Shown one piece after another: positions 27,468 through 63,449 of a DNA stretch of 64,000 nt (the stretch's first letter is position 1; each line of letters begins with the position of its first letter). Location: assembly GCF_024298905.1 (NCBI RefSeq), contig NZ_CP101154.1:1612001-1676000 (forward strand), written 5' to 3'. Source of the stretch: Natronomonas marina (lineage in GTDB: Archaea > Halobacteriota > Halobacteria > Halobacteriales > Haloarculaceae). Below the pieces are notes generated by a model. It saw nothing but the letters and a program-made list of their open reading frames with translations. It made no database searches and was not told the DNA's origin. A program made the position numbers and the translations under genes.

Positions 27468-28178
27468 ATGGCTTCGGGGGAGTTCCAACTCGGCGACGTC
27501 TTCACGGGCGAGGAATTCGACGAGGCGGCCGCTAGACGGGAGGCGGGCCGGTTCCTGGAGCGGTGGACGGGCGACGACTTCGCCACCGCCGCCGCCTGGA
27601 CGCGCCGGCTGGCGATACTCGGTAGCGTGGGAATCCCCGTTGCGGCGCTCCTCCCGACGGTCTCGGAACTCACCGACCTGATACTCGAGGTGACCTTCTA
27701 CGCGTTCCTCCTCGGCGCGGGAGCGGCGGCGAGCACGTACTACCTCTTCCGGGACGTCGACCGACCGGCCGATGTCCTCGAGGCCGACCTCGACGCCATC
27801 GAGACGGGCGGGCTGCTGGTGGCCCTCGTTTTCGCGTACTCGGCGACCAACGCACGGGCCGGCCGTCTCGCCTGGCGGTTCGTCTTCAGGTCGGCGACCT
27901 TCGCCCCCGGAGGCCGTCCTCCGCGCCTCGAGGACGACGACTCCGGGGCGTACCTGACCTGGATGCGACCGGATAGCGGGCACGGCAGCCGTCGTCGTCG
28001 CCGCCGACCTGGCGTGGTTCCTCGTCACGCGAACACCCGTCGGGCCCGCCACCTACGGCTACCTGGCCGACGGCGGCCCTGGCGACTGGAGCATCCAGTG
28101 GGGGGGCGGCCCCGTCGACGCTGGAACTGGTCGCGCTGTACGGCGTCGTGTTCCTCCTCGGTATCCTCCTCGCGGTGA
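27468..28178 (+). pseudogene. frameshifted membrane protein gene (or sequencing error)
   Basis: The reading frame from 27468 gives a plausible start (MASGEFQLGDVFTG), two hydrophobic helices and an acidic stretch up to about 27985. After that the frame turns into an Arg-rich, out-of-frame-looking tail. In the +1 frame the DNA from about 27993 encodes a good helix (AAVVVAADLAWFLVTR) and soluble residues up to a run of seven G at 28100-28106. Beyond the run a third frame encodes another helix (LVALYGVVFLLGILLAVTL). Two frameshifts are therefore needed to make one coherent protein. Decay or base-calling error cannot be separated here. Confidence 0.55.
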
Positions 28179-34887: not shown

Positions 34888-35009
34888 CACCCGCTGTCGA
34901 GGGCCATGCACTTCTGCGGGAGCGCGGTGATGGTCTCGCCGCAGCATTCACATATCAGTGCTTCGTCAGTTTCCTTAAGGTGAGTATGGGGACGGAGGGA
35001 ATCCAGCAA
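34878..35009 (-). pseudogene. decayed copy of the element's terminal zinc-ribbon gene
   Basis: The frame contains ICECCGETI, then KCMALDSGWCRP. Position by position it resembles the intact gene at 63084-63203 (ICEWCGREI, then DCPALHDGRCQP): all four Cys, the ALxxG and the final C-x-P agree. The N-terminal 12-15 residues and a proper start codon are missing; upstream it runs into the 15-bp repeat at 34986-35000. The frame also lacks the expected stop after C-x-P. This is best read as the stump of a second, related element at the same tRNA site. Confidence 0.5.
34986..35000 (+). repeat. left attachment repeat (attL core)
   Basis: The 15 bases atggggacggaggga are identical to 63269-63283, where they form the 3' end of tRNA-Trp (acceptor strand, discriminator and start of the T arm). 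Identity ends at both sides. The distance to the integrase stop is 60 bp. A short identity block at a tRNA 3' end next to an integrase is the standard sign of tyrosine-recombinase integration. Confidence 0.72.
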
Positions 35010-35060: not shown

Positions 35061-36137
35061 TTAGTCATCGTTGTCGTCCTCCTGTGTTTCTGATAGGTCG
35101 AGTGTCTCCGCGACGTTCTGCCGCCGCTCTTCGAACTCCTCGCCCTGGTCAGCGGCGTCGTAGTACCGTCGGATCGTCGACGGTGCGGCGTTTACCCGCG
35201 TGGCGACGGTTTCGATGTCGAGACCCTGGTTCAGTTGCCAGGTGATGCTCCCGGTCCGAATCGCGTGCGGACTCCGGGAGGACGGGCACTTGCTGGCGTG
35301 ACTACGCTCCGTCCACTCACAACTCGGTCGGCGACGGCCGTGGGGACACTCGGTCCAGAGACACGGCTGGGTTGCCTGGTAGCTCCAGGCTCGGAGAGTC
35401 GAGAAGGATTGCCGGCCTTGCCTCCCGGCAAAGAGCGGCTGTCGCCCGTTCTCGTCGCGCTTGTCGGAGCGTTCACGGGCGATGTAGGTGTCTATCGCCT
35501 CGCAGGCGGCCGCTGGGATACCGACCAACCGCTCGCCGCCGGCTTTGTTCTTCAGCGGCGTCCCCGTCGACGGTTGGTGTCTGAAGTGAACGACGCCACT
35601 GTCCGAGTCGTAGTCCTCCAAATCGAGCGCCCGGAGTGATCCCATGCGAGCGCCCGTGTGCCACGCCAGCTCGAGGAAGGCGTGCATCCCAACGCCGAAG
35701 AACTCCCGAGAGTCCCGGAAGAACGACAGCGCGCGCTGGGCGTCGGTGGCCGCCAGCCGTTCGTCGCTGGATTCGGTCTCGGCATCCAGCGACGGCGGCG
35801 AAATCGCGTCCGACAGGCCCTCCTCGACGGCGTCGATCTCCTCGAGATACTGCACGAAGACGCGAATCGTCGATAGGTGGCCCTTGATTGTCGTCGCCGC
35901 CAGGTCGCGGGACCGCAACTGTAAGTCGTACTCGTCGATGTCGTAGGCGCGAAGTTCACCGACAGTCTCGATACCGACGTCCTCGCAGTACTCCACGAAC
36001 GGCGTGAGACGCGAGCGGTAACTCCGGAGCGTCCGGTCGGTCGCATCGGTCTGTCGCTTGCGCATGAACCGCTCCAAAGCATTCCGGACGGACAACTCCC
36101 GAGCGTCTCCGCGACGGTCGTCGCTACTCACGGCCAT
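35061..36137 (-). CDS. int: tyrosine integrase (XerC/phage-type) of the element
   Basis: A 358-aa integrase with an N-terminal SAM-like core-binding domain (about 15-110) and a catalytic domain. Catalytic residues are visible: Arg164 in HTGARMGSLR, His291 and Arg294 in HAIR, and the Tyr pair 325-326 in TIRRYYD. A Cys/His insertion just before box II (Cys259, 264, 273 and 284 in CLWTECPHGRR..PSCEW..KCPSSRSPH) could bind zinc; it is frequent in haloarchaeal integrases. The gene lies at the left end pointing to attL, and should recombine the 3' end of tRNA-Trp with the element's att. Confidence 0.9.
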   Translation of the reverse strand: MAVSSDDRRGDARELSVRNALERFMRKRQTDATDRTLRSYRSRLTPFVEYCEDVGIETVGELRAYDIDEYDLQLRSRDLAATTIKGHLSTIRVFVQYLEEIDAVEEGLSDAISPPSLDAETESSDERLAATDAQRALSFFRDSREFFGVGMHAFLELAWHTGARMGSLRALDLEDYDSDSGVVHFRHQPSTGTPLKNKAGGERLVGIPAAACEAIDTYIARERSDKRDENGRQPLFAGRQGRQSFSTLRAWSYQATQPCLWTECPHGRRRPSCEWTERSHASKCPSSRSPHAIRTGSITWQLNQGLDIETVATRVNAAPSTIRRYYDAADQGEEFEERRQNVAETLDLSETQEDDNDD

Positions 36138-39475: not shown

Positions 39476-39639
39476 GCACAGGTCCGGTCGGCGCACGAGA
39501 TTTTCCGCGGCGCCTCTCCGCCCGTGAGAGTCATCACTTCGTGTATTATGTCGACCCTACTTAACCTTTGCTTTCGGTAAATGGTATAGTATCGTCGGCC
39601 TTCCAACCGAATTATTACCAACTAAGAGAAAATACGGGT

Positions 39640-39885
39640 GTGACTCGAGGGCCGGAGCCGGACATCGCGGCGGTTGAAATCCTGTCTTTCATGCAGGAGC
39701 ATACCGATCCGGGCTTTACCGCGAGAGAGGTGGCTGACGAATTCGATAAGACACGACAATGGGCAGATAATCGCCTGAAAACGATGGAGGATGATGGGTT
39801 ACTCCACTCGAAAAATCCTGGCGGACGCGCGAGATTTTATTGGCCCTCACACAAGGGTAAAGAGAAGCTGCGCGATTCAAGATAG
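39640..39885 (+). CDS. winged-helix transcriptional regulator
   Basis: An 81-aa winged-helix protein. The recognition region is AREVADEFDKTRQWADNRLK, followed by a wing (LLHSKNPGGRARFYWPS). A GTG start at 39640 is chosen because an AT-rich box (aattattacc) sits 20-30 bp upstream, as for a leaderless message; a longer frame begins at a TTG near 39568. It is clearly related to the converging gene at 39886-40107. The stop codons of the two genes are adjacent. Confidence 0.68.
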   Translation: MTRGPEPDIAAVEILSFMQEHTDPGFTAREVADEFDKTRQWADNRLKTMEDDGLLHSKNPGGRARFYWPSHKGKEKLRDSR

Positions 39886-40107
39886 CTAATCGACCCACCA
39901 TATCACCGAACGTTTTCCGGCGGCTTTTCGCTGTATTCGGCCCTCATCGGCAAGATTTTGCAATCTATCGTGCGCCCACTGGCGAGTATGATCGAACCTT
40001 TCTGCGACCTCTGCCGCGACTACAAACGGGTCGTCATGACTCTCAATCGCGTTGACGATCTCATCGTCGGATACAGTCTCCTTGCCTTGGGGCATCTCTT
40101 CGTTCAT
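39886..40107 (-). CDS. winged-helix transcriptional regulator, paralogue of its converging neighbour
   Basis: A 73-aa winged-helix protein with AAEVAERFDHTRQWAHDRLQ and a basic wing (IQRKAAGKRSVIWW). It shares the FDxTRQWAxxRL core with the gene at 39640-39885. A TATA-like tract (ataatacttttgc on the minus strand, about 40125-40138) stands about 25 bp before the ATG, so the message is probably leaderless. It may set the lysogeny-type state of the element together with its paralogue. Confidence 0.72.
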   Translation of the reverse strand: MNEEMPQGKETVSDDEIVNAIESHDDPFVVAAEVAERFDHTRQWAHDRLQNLADEGRIQRKAAGKRSVIWWVD

Positions 40108-41972: not shown

Positions 41973-42422
41973 CTACTCCTCGCCGCCCTCGTCGCGGACC
42001 GCCTCGCGCGCCGACGCCAGCACCTCACCGGGCCGCATCGCGCCCATGACGGCGTGTAGCTCGTTGGTTGGCCAGCCGGCCCGAGCGTACGCCAGCGCGG
42101 TCGCCTCCTCGTCCGTGAGGCCGTGCTCGTCGGCGAGCAGGTCCGCATACGCAGCGTCTGACAGCACCTCACGGCCGCCGTTCGGGAGCGGGTAGTTGGC
42201 GACGATGGTCTCGGGCGGGTACGGCTCGCGGCCGCTCCGCGAGCACGTCACACTCCCGCCCTGCTGGCGGTACGCCTCGAGCGGGATCAGCTCGTCGTCG
42301 ACGGCGGCCGGCCGCTCGATGCCGCAGTACGCCGCGACGGTCTCCCGGTCGGCCTCCTGGGGGTCGCCCGCTCCCTGAGGCGCGAGACCGCCGGCGAGAC
42401 CGCGCAGAAGCGACCGAATCAT
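41973..42422 (-). CDS. unknown protein
   Basis: A 149-aa protein whose start overlaps the upstream HTH gene by 4 bp. The N-terminal part begins MIRSLLRGLAGGLAPQ. A small domain near 60-115 contains PPETIVANYPLPNGG and a Asp/Glu-rich helix. No family was recognised. It is presumably in one operon with the repressor-like gene upstream. Confidence 0.5.
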   Translation of the reverse strand: MIRSLLRGLAGGLAPQGAGDPQEADRETVAAYCGIERPAAVDDELIPLEAYRQQGGSVTCSRSGREPYPPETIVANYPLPNGGREVLSDAAYADLLADEHGLTDEEATALAYARAGWPTNELHAVMGAMRPGEVLASAREAVRDEGGEE

Positions 42423-42673
42423 TTCGATTCCCCCCAGCCCTCGGGTGGGCGATACCACGCGACCGTCTGCCCGTGGAGCTTCTTCTTCCGAATCACGCCC
42501 TCGTCTGCGAGTTTGTTCAGCCGGTAGTTCGCGGTCGACTGCGGGAGGTCCAGCAACTCGGCGATCTCGGTCGTCCCGTAGGGCTCGACGGGTCGCATCA
42601 CGTCGAGTATCTCCTCGGGCTCCGTCTCCGGCTCCCAGGTCCCATTCTCCGCTCGCGGGCGCTCGTTTGCCAT
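42419..42673 (-). CDS. winged-helix regulator, likely autoregulated
   Basis: An 84-aa winged-helix protein: TTEIAELLDLPQSTANYRLN as turn and recognition helix, then a wing with RKKKLHGQTVAWY. Its ATG follows a TATA-like box (rc GCTTATCG) at a leaderless distance. Between box and ATG lies an operator-like palindrome and a CCTAACC motif shared with the 45264 promoter, so both promoters may be controlled by this protein. The next gene is 4-bp overlapped. Confidence 0.72.
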   Translation of the reverse strand: MANERPRAENGTWEPETEPEEILDVMRPVEPYGTTEIAELLDLPQSTANYRLNKLADEGVIRKKKLHGQTVAWYRPPEGWGESK

Positions 42674-42674
42674 A

Positions 42675-42704
42675 CCTAACCCATTGGCTACGTAGCCGAT
42701 AAGC
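42675..42704 (-). promoter_or_regulatory. promoter/operator of the HTH gene
   Basis: Read leftward it has a TATA-like GCTTATCG (42697-42704), a perfect 12-bp palindrome ggctacgtagcc (42686-42697) and a CCTAACCcATTGG motif (42675-42687) abutting the ATG at 42673. The motif resembles the two CCTAACCAAAGG copies at 45271-45322. Confidence 0.55.
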
Positions 42705-42770
42705 ATTGTGTCGTGTCTGACGTGTTGCATTTGAAGGGGACTCCTGCGTTCTCGGAGAAGATACCGGCCG

Positions 42771-43736
42771 TTACCGCTCGAAATCGGATAGTGCGGTCTG
42801 GCCGCCGCCGTCGGCCCGAATCTCGGGCTGTCCACCGCCGGCATCGTCGGGGCGGTCACTACCTCCGCCACCGCCTCCGTCGTGGTCGTCGTTGCTGCCG
42901 CCGTCGCCGCGTGACTGTCGAATCCAGCGGCGAAGCCAGTCGGTATTCTCGCCAGCATATTCGACCGCTTCGGCGCCGTAGCTGTCGGTCTCTTCCACCA
43001 TGACCACCGCACTCGACTCCTCGGCGTCTTCGAGAAGGAGCTGCGTCGGCCCCATCACGTCCTGCGTCCGGACGACGTACTCGGTACCGGCGCGGTCGAC
43101 CGCTTCGGCCCCCGTCGTCGCCATCCGACCGCGGATTCGGGTGAGGAGCACCTCGCCTTTGCCGTCGATAGCGAACACGTCGCCGCGGTCCCAGGTAGAC
43201 ATCTCGAGCGGGTCGGTCGACTCTTCGCCCACCTCGTCGGTCTCCGCCGAATCCTCCGGTTCGTCGCCGTTCTCCTCGCTTTCCTCGAGTGTGTTCCCGC
43301 AGGCTTCACACCGTGGCGAAGCCACGCGGTCGACCTGGAAGGGCGCCGCTTCACTCCCGCAGTTGGGGCACTCCTCGGGGAGATCGTCGGGCTGATCGAC
43401 TCGCGGCCAGTGGGTCGGCTCCGGCAGCTCCGACGGCTCCGAAACGTGGTTCGCGCCGGCCTGCGGACCGGGCGCGTGGTTCGTTTGCTGTCGCTTCTGG
43501 AGTCTCGCCGGCGTGTACAGCTCGTAGGATCGCGTGTCTCTGTATTCCGAGTCGCCGGAGAGGATCGTCTCGGTGTCTAATCGGACCGAGCCGTCGCTGT
43601 GCTTCGACTTCGGCGCGGAAATCGTCTTGCCGGTCCCCGACGTCTCGCCTTCGATCACCTCGGGGCTGTTCATCACTCGCGTTATGCTCGTCACGAGAAG
43701 GACGGTCTCGTTCTCCGGAAGCTCTGACTCCGTCAT
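42771..43736 (-). CDS. 321-aa protein with central zinc ribbon, unknown function
   Basis: A 321-aa protein with a central zinc ribbon (ECPNCGSEA, then SPRCEACGNTL, about residues 122-148). The N-terminus has LLVTSITRVMNSPEVIEG and a Lys/His-rich section. An acidic linker and a beta-rich domain (VFAIDGKGEVLLTRIRGR) follow. The C-terminal 60 residues are Gly/Asp-rich low complexity ending in ALSDFER. It could bind single-stranded DNA or act in replication; this is not assigned. It overlaps the upstream gene by 4 bp. Confidence 0.6.
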   Translation of the reverse strand: MTESELPENETVLLVTSITRVMNSPEVIEGETSGTGKTISAPKSKHSDGSVRLDTETILSGDSEYRDTRSYELYTPARLQKRQQTNHAPGPQAGANHVSEPSELPEPTHWPRVDQPDDLPEECPNCGSEAAPFQVDRVASPRCEACGNTLEESEENGDEPEDSAETDEVGEESTDPLEMSTWDRGDVFAIDGKGEVLLTRIRGRMATTGAEAVDRAGTEYVVRTQDVMGPTQLLLEDAEESSAVVMVEETDSYGAEAVEYAGENTDWLRRWIRQSRGDGGSNDDHDGGGGGGSDRPDDAGGGQPEIRADGGGQTALSDFER

Positions 43737-43927
43737 CGACCACCCTCCGTTTCCAGGGCATGCGTGACTCTCGCCTTAATCCGCGCGTATGCGGCCTTCT
43801 CGTCGGCCGTCTCCGCGGTGTTCTCCTCGGCCATCAACATTCCGTGCACGGTTTGGGCGTCGCCGCGCGGTAGTTCGATGGTCACGGTCTCTTCGCCGGT
43901 CGTCGCCATTCGCTCGCTTTCATTCAT
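43733..43927 (-). CDS. small protein of unknown function
   Basis: A 64-aa acidic protein with a beta strand (EETVTIELPRGDAQTVH) and a long helix (AEENTAETADEKAAYARIKA). An alternative start at 43909 would shorten it by six residues. It lies between the 321-aa gene (4-bp overlap) and the EP-repeat gene. The family is not recognised. Confidence 0.5.
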   Translation of the reverse strand: MNESERMATTGEETVTIELPRGDAQTVHGMLMAEENTAETADEKAAYARIKARVTHALETEGGR

Positions 43928-43990
43928 GGGTTGACACCCAAGTTCCCGCTGGGGAATCGAACCCCGCTCGAACCCCACCAGGGGGACGGG

Positions 43991-44689
43991 TTACGCACCG
44001 CTCGCAGCGTCCGGATTTGCCGCGATAAACGCGGCGGCGCGGCCGACCGTCCGGAATCCCCGGGCGATCTCACGGCCGGCCGCCGCCGCTTCTCGACCGA
44101 CCGCGCGGACGACCAGCTCCGGCGTGGACATCTCGCCGACCGGCTTCGACTCCGCGCCGGTCTCGGTCTCGTCGCTGGCCTCCCGTTCGGCCCGCTCTAT
44201 CGCCTCACGGACCGCTTCGTCGCTGGCGCCCGCCGGTTCGGGCGTGTCCGTTGTCTCGTCGGTCTCGTCGGTCTCGTCGACCGGCTCCGGCTCCGGTTCG
44301 GGCTCCGGCTCCGGTTCGGGCTCCGGCTCCGGTTCGGCGCCGGTCTCGGTCTCGCCCGCCCGCTTTTTCCGTTCGATGTACCGCTCCTCCCGCTCTTCCC
44401 ACACCTTCGCTTCCCGTTCGGCCTCCCGGTCGGTCCGGAGGCCATACTCGTCCTTGATGGCCTCATAGCACCGCTTCGCCTCTTCCTGATAATCGGCGCC
44501 CGGCTCCGGGGTGATGTACTTCTCGGGCGCTTCCTGCATTTTCTCGAAGACGCGATCCGCCCGCGTTTGGTCGTTCCAGGTGGCCTGCATCCACCAGGTC
44601 GAAATTTGATTGAGGATCGCGGCGCGCCGCCGCCCGGTCTCACCCGTCCCGCCGCCGCGTTCGCTCCGGCTGTAGCTCTTCGTCGACAT
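43991..44689 (-). CDS. protein with Glu-Pro repeat linker
   Basis: A 232-aa protein in three parts. A helical N-terminal half (about 1-110) contains TWWMQATWNDQTRADRVFEK and a Glu/Arg-rich coiled stretch. A Glu-Pro repeat of about 20 residues is followed by a Asp/Glu/Thr linker. The C-terminal helical part (about 160-232) is more hydrophobic. The EP linker is encoded by an 18-bp tandem repeat. The architecture suggests two functional ends held apart by a rigid spacer, such as a scaffold or DNA-organising protein. Function is unknown. Confidence 0.58.
   Translation of the reverse strand: MSTKSYSRSERGGGTGETGRRRAAILNQISTWWMQATWNDQTRADRVFEKMQEAPEKYITPEPGADYQEEAKRCYEAIKDEYGLRTDREAEREAKVWEEREERYIERKKRAGETETGAEPEPEPEPEPEPEPEPEPVDETDETDETTDTPEPAGASDEAVREAIERAEREASDETETGAESKPVGEMSTPELVVRAVGREAAAAGREIARGFRTVGRAAAFIAANPDAASGA
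44283..44336 (-). repeat. 18-bp tandem repeat (three units) coding for Glu-Pro dipeptides
   Basis: Three near-identical copies of ggctccggctccggttcg follow each other. On the coding strand they specify alternating Glu and Pro. Variation in copy number would alter linker length without shifting frame. Confidence 0.85.
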
Positions 44690-44692
44690 GGC

Positions 44693-44866
44693 TCAAAACT
44701 CTCCGATGGATAGCTGGCCGCCGGCGCCGAACCGGGCGAGGGTCCGGTCGGCATCGGTCGCTTCTCGCGTGTCGCCGGCTTCGTCGGCGCTTCCGTCGTC
44801 ATCGTCGGCGAACGGGCTTTCGGGATCGTCGGCCGGCTCGAGCGACAGCGTCCCCTGGGTGGTCAT
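44693..44866 (-). CDS. small acidic protein
   Basis: A 57-aa strongly acidic protein (SPFADDDDGSADEAGD) with a conserved-looking start TTQGTLSLEPADD and end FGAGGQLSIGEF. The two hydrophobic ends look like short linear motifs (QxxLxLE at the start, QLSIGEF at the end) of the kind used to bind a sliding clamp; this is suggestive only. It overlaps the upstream gene by 4 bp. Confidence 0.5.
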   Translation of the reverse strand: MTTQGTLSLEPADDPESPFADDDDGSADEAGDTREATDADRTLARFGAGGQLSIGEF

Positions 44867-45264
44867 CGGTCGACACACTCCCCGCAGGTGTAGGTCCGGC
44901 CGTCGCGCCGCGCAAAGTCGGCCGGATCGCGCGCTTCCCCACACTCCGCACACCGGAGGAGCGGCTTCTCGGGCGTGGATAGGAGCTTCACGGTCGAGGT
45001 GAACGACGTACGGCCGTGGACCCACTCGCCGCGGCGCTTCCGCAGCTCGATCTCGTTTCCGTCCCGTTCGGCGATGAGGCTCTTCGACCGCGTTTCCGTC
45101 ACGGTGTAAGCGCGATCTTCCCGGTGGTCGTTGCGGTCGACGAGAATCTTCGCGCCGGCTTCTATCGTCGCGGGATTCTCGAGCCACCGCGGGACAGCAT
45201 TGCTTTCGCTCCGGTCGGCCGTATCCGGCTCAATGTCGCCGAACGTTGCTTGGCTGGTAGCCAT
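44863..45264 (-). CDS. zinc-ribbon protein, first gene of the 45.3-42.8 kb operon
   Basis: A 133-aa protein whose C-terminus is a zinc ribbon (LLRCAECGEARD, then YTCGECVDR). The middle resembles an SH3-like barrel (GAKILVDRNDHREDRAYTV). The ATG at 45264 is chosen because a TATA-like tract lies 27-36 bp upstream with an operator motif between. It heads a five-gene leftward operon to 42771. It may bind DNA. Confidence 0.6.
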   Translation of the reverse strand: MATSQATFGDIEPDTADRSESNAVPRWLENPATIEAGAKILVDRNDHREDRAYTVTETRSKSLIAERDGNEIELRKRRGEWVHGRTSFTSTVKLLSTPEKPLLRCAECGEARDPADFARRDGRTYTCGECVDR

Positions 45265-45270
45265 TGTACA

Positions 45271-45322
45271 CCTAACCAAAGGGAGTGGTGGGTAATAAAT
45301 CCTTTGGCTACCTAACCAAAGG
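45271..45322 (-). promoter_or_regulatory. promoter with repeated operator motif
   Basis: The motif cctaaccaaagg occurs at 45271-45282 and again at 45311-45322. The second copy is part of the inverted repeat cctttgg-ctacctaa-ccaaagg. Between the copies is the TATA-like box (minus strand ATTTATTACC, 45291-45300), about 30 bp before the ATG. The operator thus brackets the box. The same CCTAACC core occurs at 42675. Confidence 0.6.
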
Positions 45323-45411
45323 TATGGGTAATAGATTCAAATAGACCGCACGAGGGCGCGGCCGCGGTCGGTCACTCGCGGGCGCAATACGGCCAGCTCG
45401 CCAGGACCATC

Positions 45412-45487
45412 CACCCCGCCCCCTACACCCCCCACCCGCATGCGGGGGGTGGGGTACCCCCCACACCCCCCACCCCCCACCACCCCC
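45412..45487. repeat. C-rich/G-rich tract with G-quadruplex and hairpin potential
   Basis: The plus strand has at least six runs of four to six C; the minus strand has the matching G runs. A local palindrome is centred on gcatgc (45438-45443). It lies in the 379-bp gap between the end of the long operon (45644) and the promoter at 45271-45322, so transcription termination or a replication or packaging signal are possible roles. No gene is seen in this gap. Confidence 0.6.
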
Positions 45488-45643
45488 TCGCGGTTCTCGA
45501 CGAACGTCGCGGTTTATCGCCGAACACCCGCGCTACGGGTCCCAGCTTGGCAGAAATCGCTGCGAGAACGTTCGAGTACGCGCGCCCGTCGAGACGCGCC
45601 CGCGCCGCCCGTCGAGCGGGCGCGGAGCAGACGCCGCCGCTGC

Positions 45644-63268: not shown

Positions 63269-63283
63269 ATGGGGACGGAGGGA
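63269..63283 (+). repeat. right attachment repeat (attR core)
   Basis: The same 15 bases as 34986-35000. Here they are the terminal 14 bases of tRNA-Trp (acceptor strand plus part of the T arm) and one base beyond, so integration leaves the tRNA intact. Confidence 0.72.
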
Positions 63284-63449
63284 TTTGAACCCCCGATCTA
63301 CTGATATCTCCGGTGTGCGCCTCGGTCCTCCAGAGGGTCGTCAACGCGGCGCGATGATCAGTCGGCCGCTCGGTATATCAGTCTGGAGTCTCGTCACCGG
63401 GCGCGTGGCCTCTGGAGTCAGCCGCCATGCCTGGCTTGGCCACGTCCCC
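63270..63449 (-). tRNA. trnW: tRNA-Trp (CCA) with intron of about 106 nt
   Basis: The mature tRNA folds well: acceptor GGGGACG with CGTCCCC and discriminator A; D arm GCCA/TGGC; anticodon stem GCTGA/TCAGT with loop C-T-C-C-A-G-A; T arm GGGGG/CCCTC around TTCAAAT. CCA is not encoded. The intron (about 63306-63411) follows the base after the anticodon, the canonical archaeal site. It contains C/D-box-like GTGACGA and CTGA, as in haloarchaeal tRNA-Trp introns known to guide 2'-O-methylation. Confidence 0.93.

Follow-up and report, generated by a model that had tools for sequence, protein, structure and literature searches.

A small winged-helix protein of 84 residues, encoded within a 28.3-kb integrated element of Natronomonas marina, is likely a repressor of that element resembling Imm of halovirus phiH, and would control both its own gene and a nearby operon through three candidate operators, A, B and C (Table 1). 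The window analysed here is a stretch of 64,000 nucleotides from contig NZ_CP101154.1, and positions are given relative to its first nucleotide unless stated otherwise. Judged from its sequence, the repressor-operator circuit is a credible one that is ordinary in kind, specific in detail and of a known general type.

Table 1. Positions of the candidate operators, promoters, genes, element boundaries and leader RNAs
Feature	Position	Strand	Remarks
Candidate operator B	45301-45322		CCTTTGGCTACCTAACCAAAGG; inverted repeat, 9/11 pairs
Candidate operator A	45261-45282		CCATTGTACACCTAACCAAAGG; 6/11 pairs, one good half-site, over start codon 45262-45264
Candidate operator C	42681-42702		CCATTGGCTACGTAGCCGATAA; 8/11 pairs, centre about -18 from HTH ATG
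CCTAACCCATTGG	42675-42687	+	belongs to overlapping weaker palindrome TACGTAGCCAATGGGTTAGGTA
Predicted TATA-like box of operon	45293-45300	-	ATTTATTA
Predicted TATA-like box of HTH gene	42698-42703	-	CTTATC; about 27 bp from ATG 42673, leaderless layout
84-aa winged-helix protein, proposed repressor (HTH gene)	42419-42673	-	putative recognition helix LPQSTANYRLNKL
149-aa gene	41973-42422	-	4-bp overlap with HTH gene end; relative in L154
Operon first gene, 133 aa	44863-45264	-	CxxC..CxxC at C-terminus
Small acidic ORF of operon	44693-44866	-	4-bp overlap with upstream neighbour
Operon gene, 232 aa	43991-44689	-	
Operon gene, 64 aa	43733-43927	-	
Operon gene, 321 aa	42771-43736	-	weakly zinc-ribbon-like; 43% identical relative in same-genus element L154
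Integrated element, 28.3 kb	34986-63283		bounded by 15-bp direct repeat ATGGGGACGGAGGGA (exact repeat search)
Leader RNA copies in relatives	L015:276-353, L021:1804-1881, L033:1320-1398, L118:727-794 and others		

Both promoters lie within the element. The repeat ATGGGGACGGAGGGA is present at 34986-35000 and 63269-63283, its right copy being the 3' end of a tRNA gene that Rfam matches over 180 bases (63270-63449, minus strand) and for which ARAGORN makes no call; the match is read as an intron-containing tRNA gene. The recurrence of this tRNA 3' end at 34986, beside an integrase gene (35061-36137), thus delimits an element of approximately 28.3 kb. Its other genes encode a type IV pilin, a PKD protein, WD40/PQQ-like proteins, a DNA methyltransferase and an ATPase, relatives of which occur in 31 of the 146 family genomes, its own genome included. 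Among the element proteins examined there was no halovirus match, and plasmid and phage searches gave zero matches for the 133-aa protein, the ATPase and a 516-aa protein. Two more small, mutually similar HTH genes, convergent and abutting, are found at 39568-39885 (plus strand) and 39886-40107 (minus strand). The operon begins with the ATG at 45264 on the minus strand. A search of the other 145 family genomes gave no relative of its first protein, of 133 residues; a related-locus search with this protein returned one viral contig (L004) with 21 matching residues. Upstream of the operon, 45341-45640 is non-coding and contains a long C-rich tract (CCCCACCCGCATGCGGGGGGTGGGGTACCCCCCA...). The 149-aa gene that follows the HTH gene is probably co-transcribed with it.

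The initial annotation had described CCTAACC, together with an inverted CCTTTGG/CCAAAGG, as an operator shared by the two promoters and lying between TATA-like box and start at each. Direct reading of the sequence confirms the motif copies where they were reported. CCTAACCAAAGG is present twice, at 45271-45282 and 45311-45322, with the second copy contained in CCTTTGG-N8-CCAAAGG at 45301-45322, and CCTAACCCATTGG adjoins the CAT at 42671-42673 that is the minus-strand ATG of the HTH gene. The reported placement holds for A, which overlies the operon start codon, and for the CCTAACC at 42675, but not for B, which adjoins the upstream side of the operon TATA-like box. Although both promoters do carry sites, the better palindrome at the HTH gene is C, which overlaps the TATA-like box, is without the GG end, and shares one base with the CCTAACC of the initial annotation and seven with CCTAACCCATTGG. 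A wider search for CCTAACC, which had been proposed as a check, gave a divided answer: the bare motif occurs in the window at chance level (three times, against a shuffle mean of 2.77, with at least three in 51 of 100 shuffles), while CCTTTGGTTAGG has only two exact matches in the 3,993,555-base genome, both at these sites, and one further match, at 2.52 Mb, when one mismatch is allowed. CCTAACC was rejected as the operator unit, being not enriched and off-centre at C. The revised unit suggested by the sequences is a 22-bp inverted repeat with a half-site near CCWTTGGYTAS. What survives of the shared operator is its outline, namely sites common to two promoters with none elsewhere at three mismatches, and not CCTAACC as its unit.

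The rarity of these sites was assessed with two queries. The 22-bp pattern CCWTTGGYTASSTARCCAAWGG, at up to three mismatches, matches the genome at A, B and C only, with zero matches for a reversed-pattern control; since the pattern was derived from A, B and C themselves, the result describes rarity elsewhere and not an independent discovery. The half-site of B alone is a less circular query and, at one mismatch, was found in the whole window, on both strands, at two places, 42681 (the HTH promoter) and 29959, which amounts to a chance of about 0.002 per given 60-bp promoter. Genome-wide, the single half-site shows no excess over background, with eight matches (four at A, B and C) against seven in the control.

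The adjacent gene had been taken to encode a winged-helix protein, and this assignment stood. The 84-aa product matches Pfam HTH_24 (8.5e-7, 28.9 bits, cut-off 21.9) and is kin to phiH Imm, with 34% identity over 68 aa. Its AlphaFold2 single-sequence model (mean pLDDT 71.8) contains the elements H19-26, H34-40, H45-58, E61-66 and E69-74, and a Foldseek search with this model returned mostly winged-helix proteins, with no match at E<=1e-3. At E<=0.001 the protein has matches in 127 of the 146 family genomes, its own included, many of which are longer and other proteins. The related-locus search of the genome and viral contigs returned no relative of it, and its phage matches, among those listed, are short and weak ones to bacterial phages.

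The 84-aa protein would most likely act as a dimer on the 22-bp inverted repeats with their half-site near CCWTTGGYTAS. Bound at C, it would occupy the TATA box and start region of its own gene and thereby repress itself. At the operon running from 45264 to 42771, B and A would lie to either side of the TATA box and extend over the start codon. Given this placement, binding would block the assembly of TBP/TFB and RNA polymerase. The predicted outcome is a two-promoter circuit of the immunity type, in which the operon stays silent for as long as the element is resident. Binding, dimerization and repression, as well as the maintenance role and the 'early' timing, are what we infer.

Several features count against this reading: A is a poor palindrome, the site positions are unlike those of relatives, and the regulator gene is not divergent from its target. 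The weak helix-site correlation, the many relatives below seven pairs and the small share of fresh plasmid loci with repeats in the predicted windows, all given below, count against it as well. A and B are included in a longer direct repeat, CCTAACCAAAGG...TGGGTAATA, with a spacing of 40 bp, so that their identity represents one event and not two independent occurrences. This joint recurrence of CCTAACCAAAGG and TGGGTAATA, 40 bp apart, reflects one duplication, and it favours an account in which A and B arose by duplication of a core promoter, with the 40-bp direct repeat copying the TATA-like box and start region and the inverted repeat being incidental. We consider that account unlikely, for it leaves unexplained both the palindrome of B (9/11) and the half-site CCATTGGCTAC with its palindrome at C, in another promoter. 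Archaeal activators positioned just upstream of the TATA box can recruit TBP/TFB, and B adjoins its TATA-like box on precisely this side; the 84-aa protein might then bind the sites and activate the operon, for example from B. A over the start codon and C over a TATA-like box and start region nevertheless have positions typical of repression, making activation quite improbable.

It is very unlikely that A, B and C are bound by some other regulator, either of the host or from among the small HTH proteins of the element. The products of 39568-39885 and 39886-40107 are indeed both HTH-like, but no outstanding A/B/C-like site is present at their promoters; a host regulator would be unusual in having no site elsewhere in the genome, and C is located in the promoter of the 84-aa gene itself. 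The preferred reading remains an Imm-like repressor acting on its own promoter and that of the operon.

Relatives of the proposed repressor offer a comparison for its sites. These comprise 67 from genomes along with phiH Imm and NVIV1 ORF20, and in many of them the gene is preceded by one 22-bp repeat or, often, by two, clustering near -75 and -41 (for example L008, L010, L016, L021, L030, L058, L070, L074, L078, L079 and L085). In windows of -77..-69 or -43..-39, picked after inspecting the data, repeats with at least 8/11 pairs occur in 17 of 58 de-duplicated relatives, against a mean of 5.2 (maximum 13) for 73 shifted window pairs. With at least seven pairs the corresponding figures are 23 of 58 against 10.9 (maximum 19), and with at least nine pairs 9 of 58 against 1.4 (maximum 7); the remaining 35 of the 58 have fewer than seven pairs in the two windows. 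Among ten fresh plasmid loci, three (L109, L110, L112) have repeats of at least eight pairs exactly in the predicted windows, repeats of 8 or 9 pairs lie elsewhere upstream in L114, L115 and L118, and L111, L113, L116 and L117 have no 8-pair repeat. The NVIV1 ORF20 regulator (L037:1340-1450) has an upstream tandem GATGCAGA..GGATGAATGGG, a different layout of repeated sites. The 22-bp inverted repeat upstream of the regulator's own gene, as we describe it for the relatives, is found in the window as C, with 8/11 pairs. Its sites fall at -47, -7 and -18, as opposed to -75 and -41, and the tandem repeats at these offsets opposite a divergent target gene, which are common but not universal in relatives, are not found there.

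Covariation between recognition helix and site was also considered. Operators could be scored in 29 of 69 proteins, of which 25 were retained after de-duplication, and the three sites of the window were added by hand. The two correlate weakly (r 0.21, Mantel p 0.025), and nothing is left of this after correction for overall relatedness (partial r 0.03, p 0.39); such covariation was dropped as proof of binding, being inseparable from overall relatedness. In the relative L022, a perfect palindrome, CCTTTGGTAGGCCTACCAAAGG, is accompanied by a recognition helix 62% identical to that of the window protein, compared with 27% for the rest. This combination, though suggestive, was noticed afterwards. 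Cousin elements were sought through the ATPase, and one of the ten stretches examined, L154, has a relative of the 321-aa operon gene. There the operon opens with a 288-aa gene, which is followed by a 272-aa gene and then by this relative, of 338 aa. Within this 19.5-kb stretch there is no similar small winged-helix gene, the sole match to a winged-helix-family HMM being a much longer, different protein, and no CCTTTGG-type site was seen by eye at the operon start. The joint absence agrees with, without proving, a pairing of regulator and site, and is one case.

Many of the related regulators are encoded divergently from another gene (annotated as a SWIM zinc finger beside L118), and the leader of that gene carries a conserved three-way-junction RNA. 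From 44 upstream regions screened, 17 leaders were chosen by eye with the help of an automatic search, which marked 18 of the 44 but was wrong about some of these. Folded one at a time, each of the 17 gives the same three-way junction, and their covariation amounts to 63 changes on both sides of stems, versus 26.3 for shuffles and between 5 and 29 for slid versions. The MAFFT alignment A1, in which the outer stem was misaligned, was replaced by A3. A model built from the 17 leaders, R1, was run against 20 further sources, the viral contig L004 counting as one of them, and matched nine at E<=0.001; among the 146 family genomes it matches 69. A family regulator is encoded on the opposite strand in 23 of 30 returned R1 loci, a proportion inflated by the origin of R1 in such loci and by two loci that are near copies. 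In phiH (L119:656-740), the R1 match (19.1 bits, E 0.031) coincides with the annotated start of the early transcript T4, the 5' end of which folds into a three-way junction (z -7.6). The phiCh1 counterpart (L160, about 246-336) is 81% identical to that of phiH with a similar fold, and in our reading of the sequences the changes between the two appear on both sides of stems. Rfam 15 has no match to the leaders in the loci scanned, and a narrow search of open-access literature recognized no description of this RNA. The leader, common but not universal in relatives, has no R1 match in the element of the window; the best R1 match in the window (27800-27870, E 0.21) lies outside the element. One copy is present elsewhere in the same genome, at G000:C1:2247571-2247647.

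To our knowledge, few repressors of archaeal viruses or mobile elements have a known operator. The circuit proposed here, with three candidate operators that occur nowhere else in the genome and all lie within a tRNA-integrated element, is directly testable, and the operator pattern across relatives would provide a rule for predicting the sites of a large and mostly unnamed family of regulators. The leader RNA, in turn, would give the early transcripts of phiH and phiCh1 an RNA-level feature. A wider view, which we put forward as possible though somewhat doubtful, posits a switch widespread among haloarchaeal mobile elements, in which Imm-like winged-helix proteins act on tandem 22-bp operators opposite a gene with a three-way-junction leader; the window would contain a version of it that is rearranged and lacks the RNA. 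This layout, unrecognized as a family within the searched literature, might also underlie the early region of phiH and phiCh1, and the 84-aa protein might set the superinfection immunity of its element.

Among known systems, the SNJ1 ORF4-type regulators of the Simuloviridae likewise consist of a small regulator controlling a temperate halovirus, but ORF4 is described in PMC12642351 as a MazE-superfamily protein, unlike the 84-aa winged-helix protein. In mode of action, the proposed circuit resembles phiH RepR and phiCh1 Rep, virus-encoded repressors that block an early operon according to the review PMC4284463, with repression in phiH and phiCh1 also reported in PMC6210493 and PMC6471424. Those repressors have a divergent layout and experimentally tested operators, whereas the sites of the window are predicted, and no BLASTP alignment between phiH RepR and the 84-aa protein was obtained at E<=100. 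By sequence similarity, the 84-aa protein falls instead in the class of phiH-Imm-like winged-helix regulators. We know of no published DNA site for phiH Imm. In the phiH record, a start on the Imm side is annotated 2 bp ahead of the imm ATG, and the early lytic starts T1-T3 lie about 90 bp off on the opposite strand, with a repeat, CCCTCGACG...CGTCGATGG, between them. Imm (MK002701 38262-38489), the putative immunity protein of phiH, is a homologous small winged-helix protein whose gene, like that of the window, is near-leaderless with an inverted repeat just upstream. The two differ in layout, as Imm is divergent from the early lytic transcripts, whereas the regulator and operon of the window are co-directional and 2.6 kb apart.
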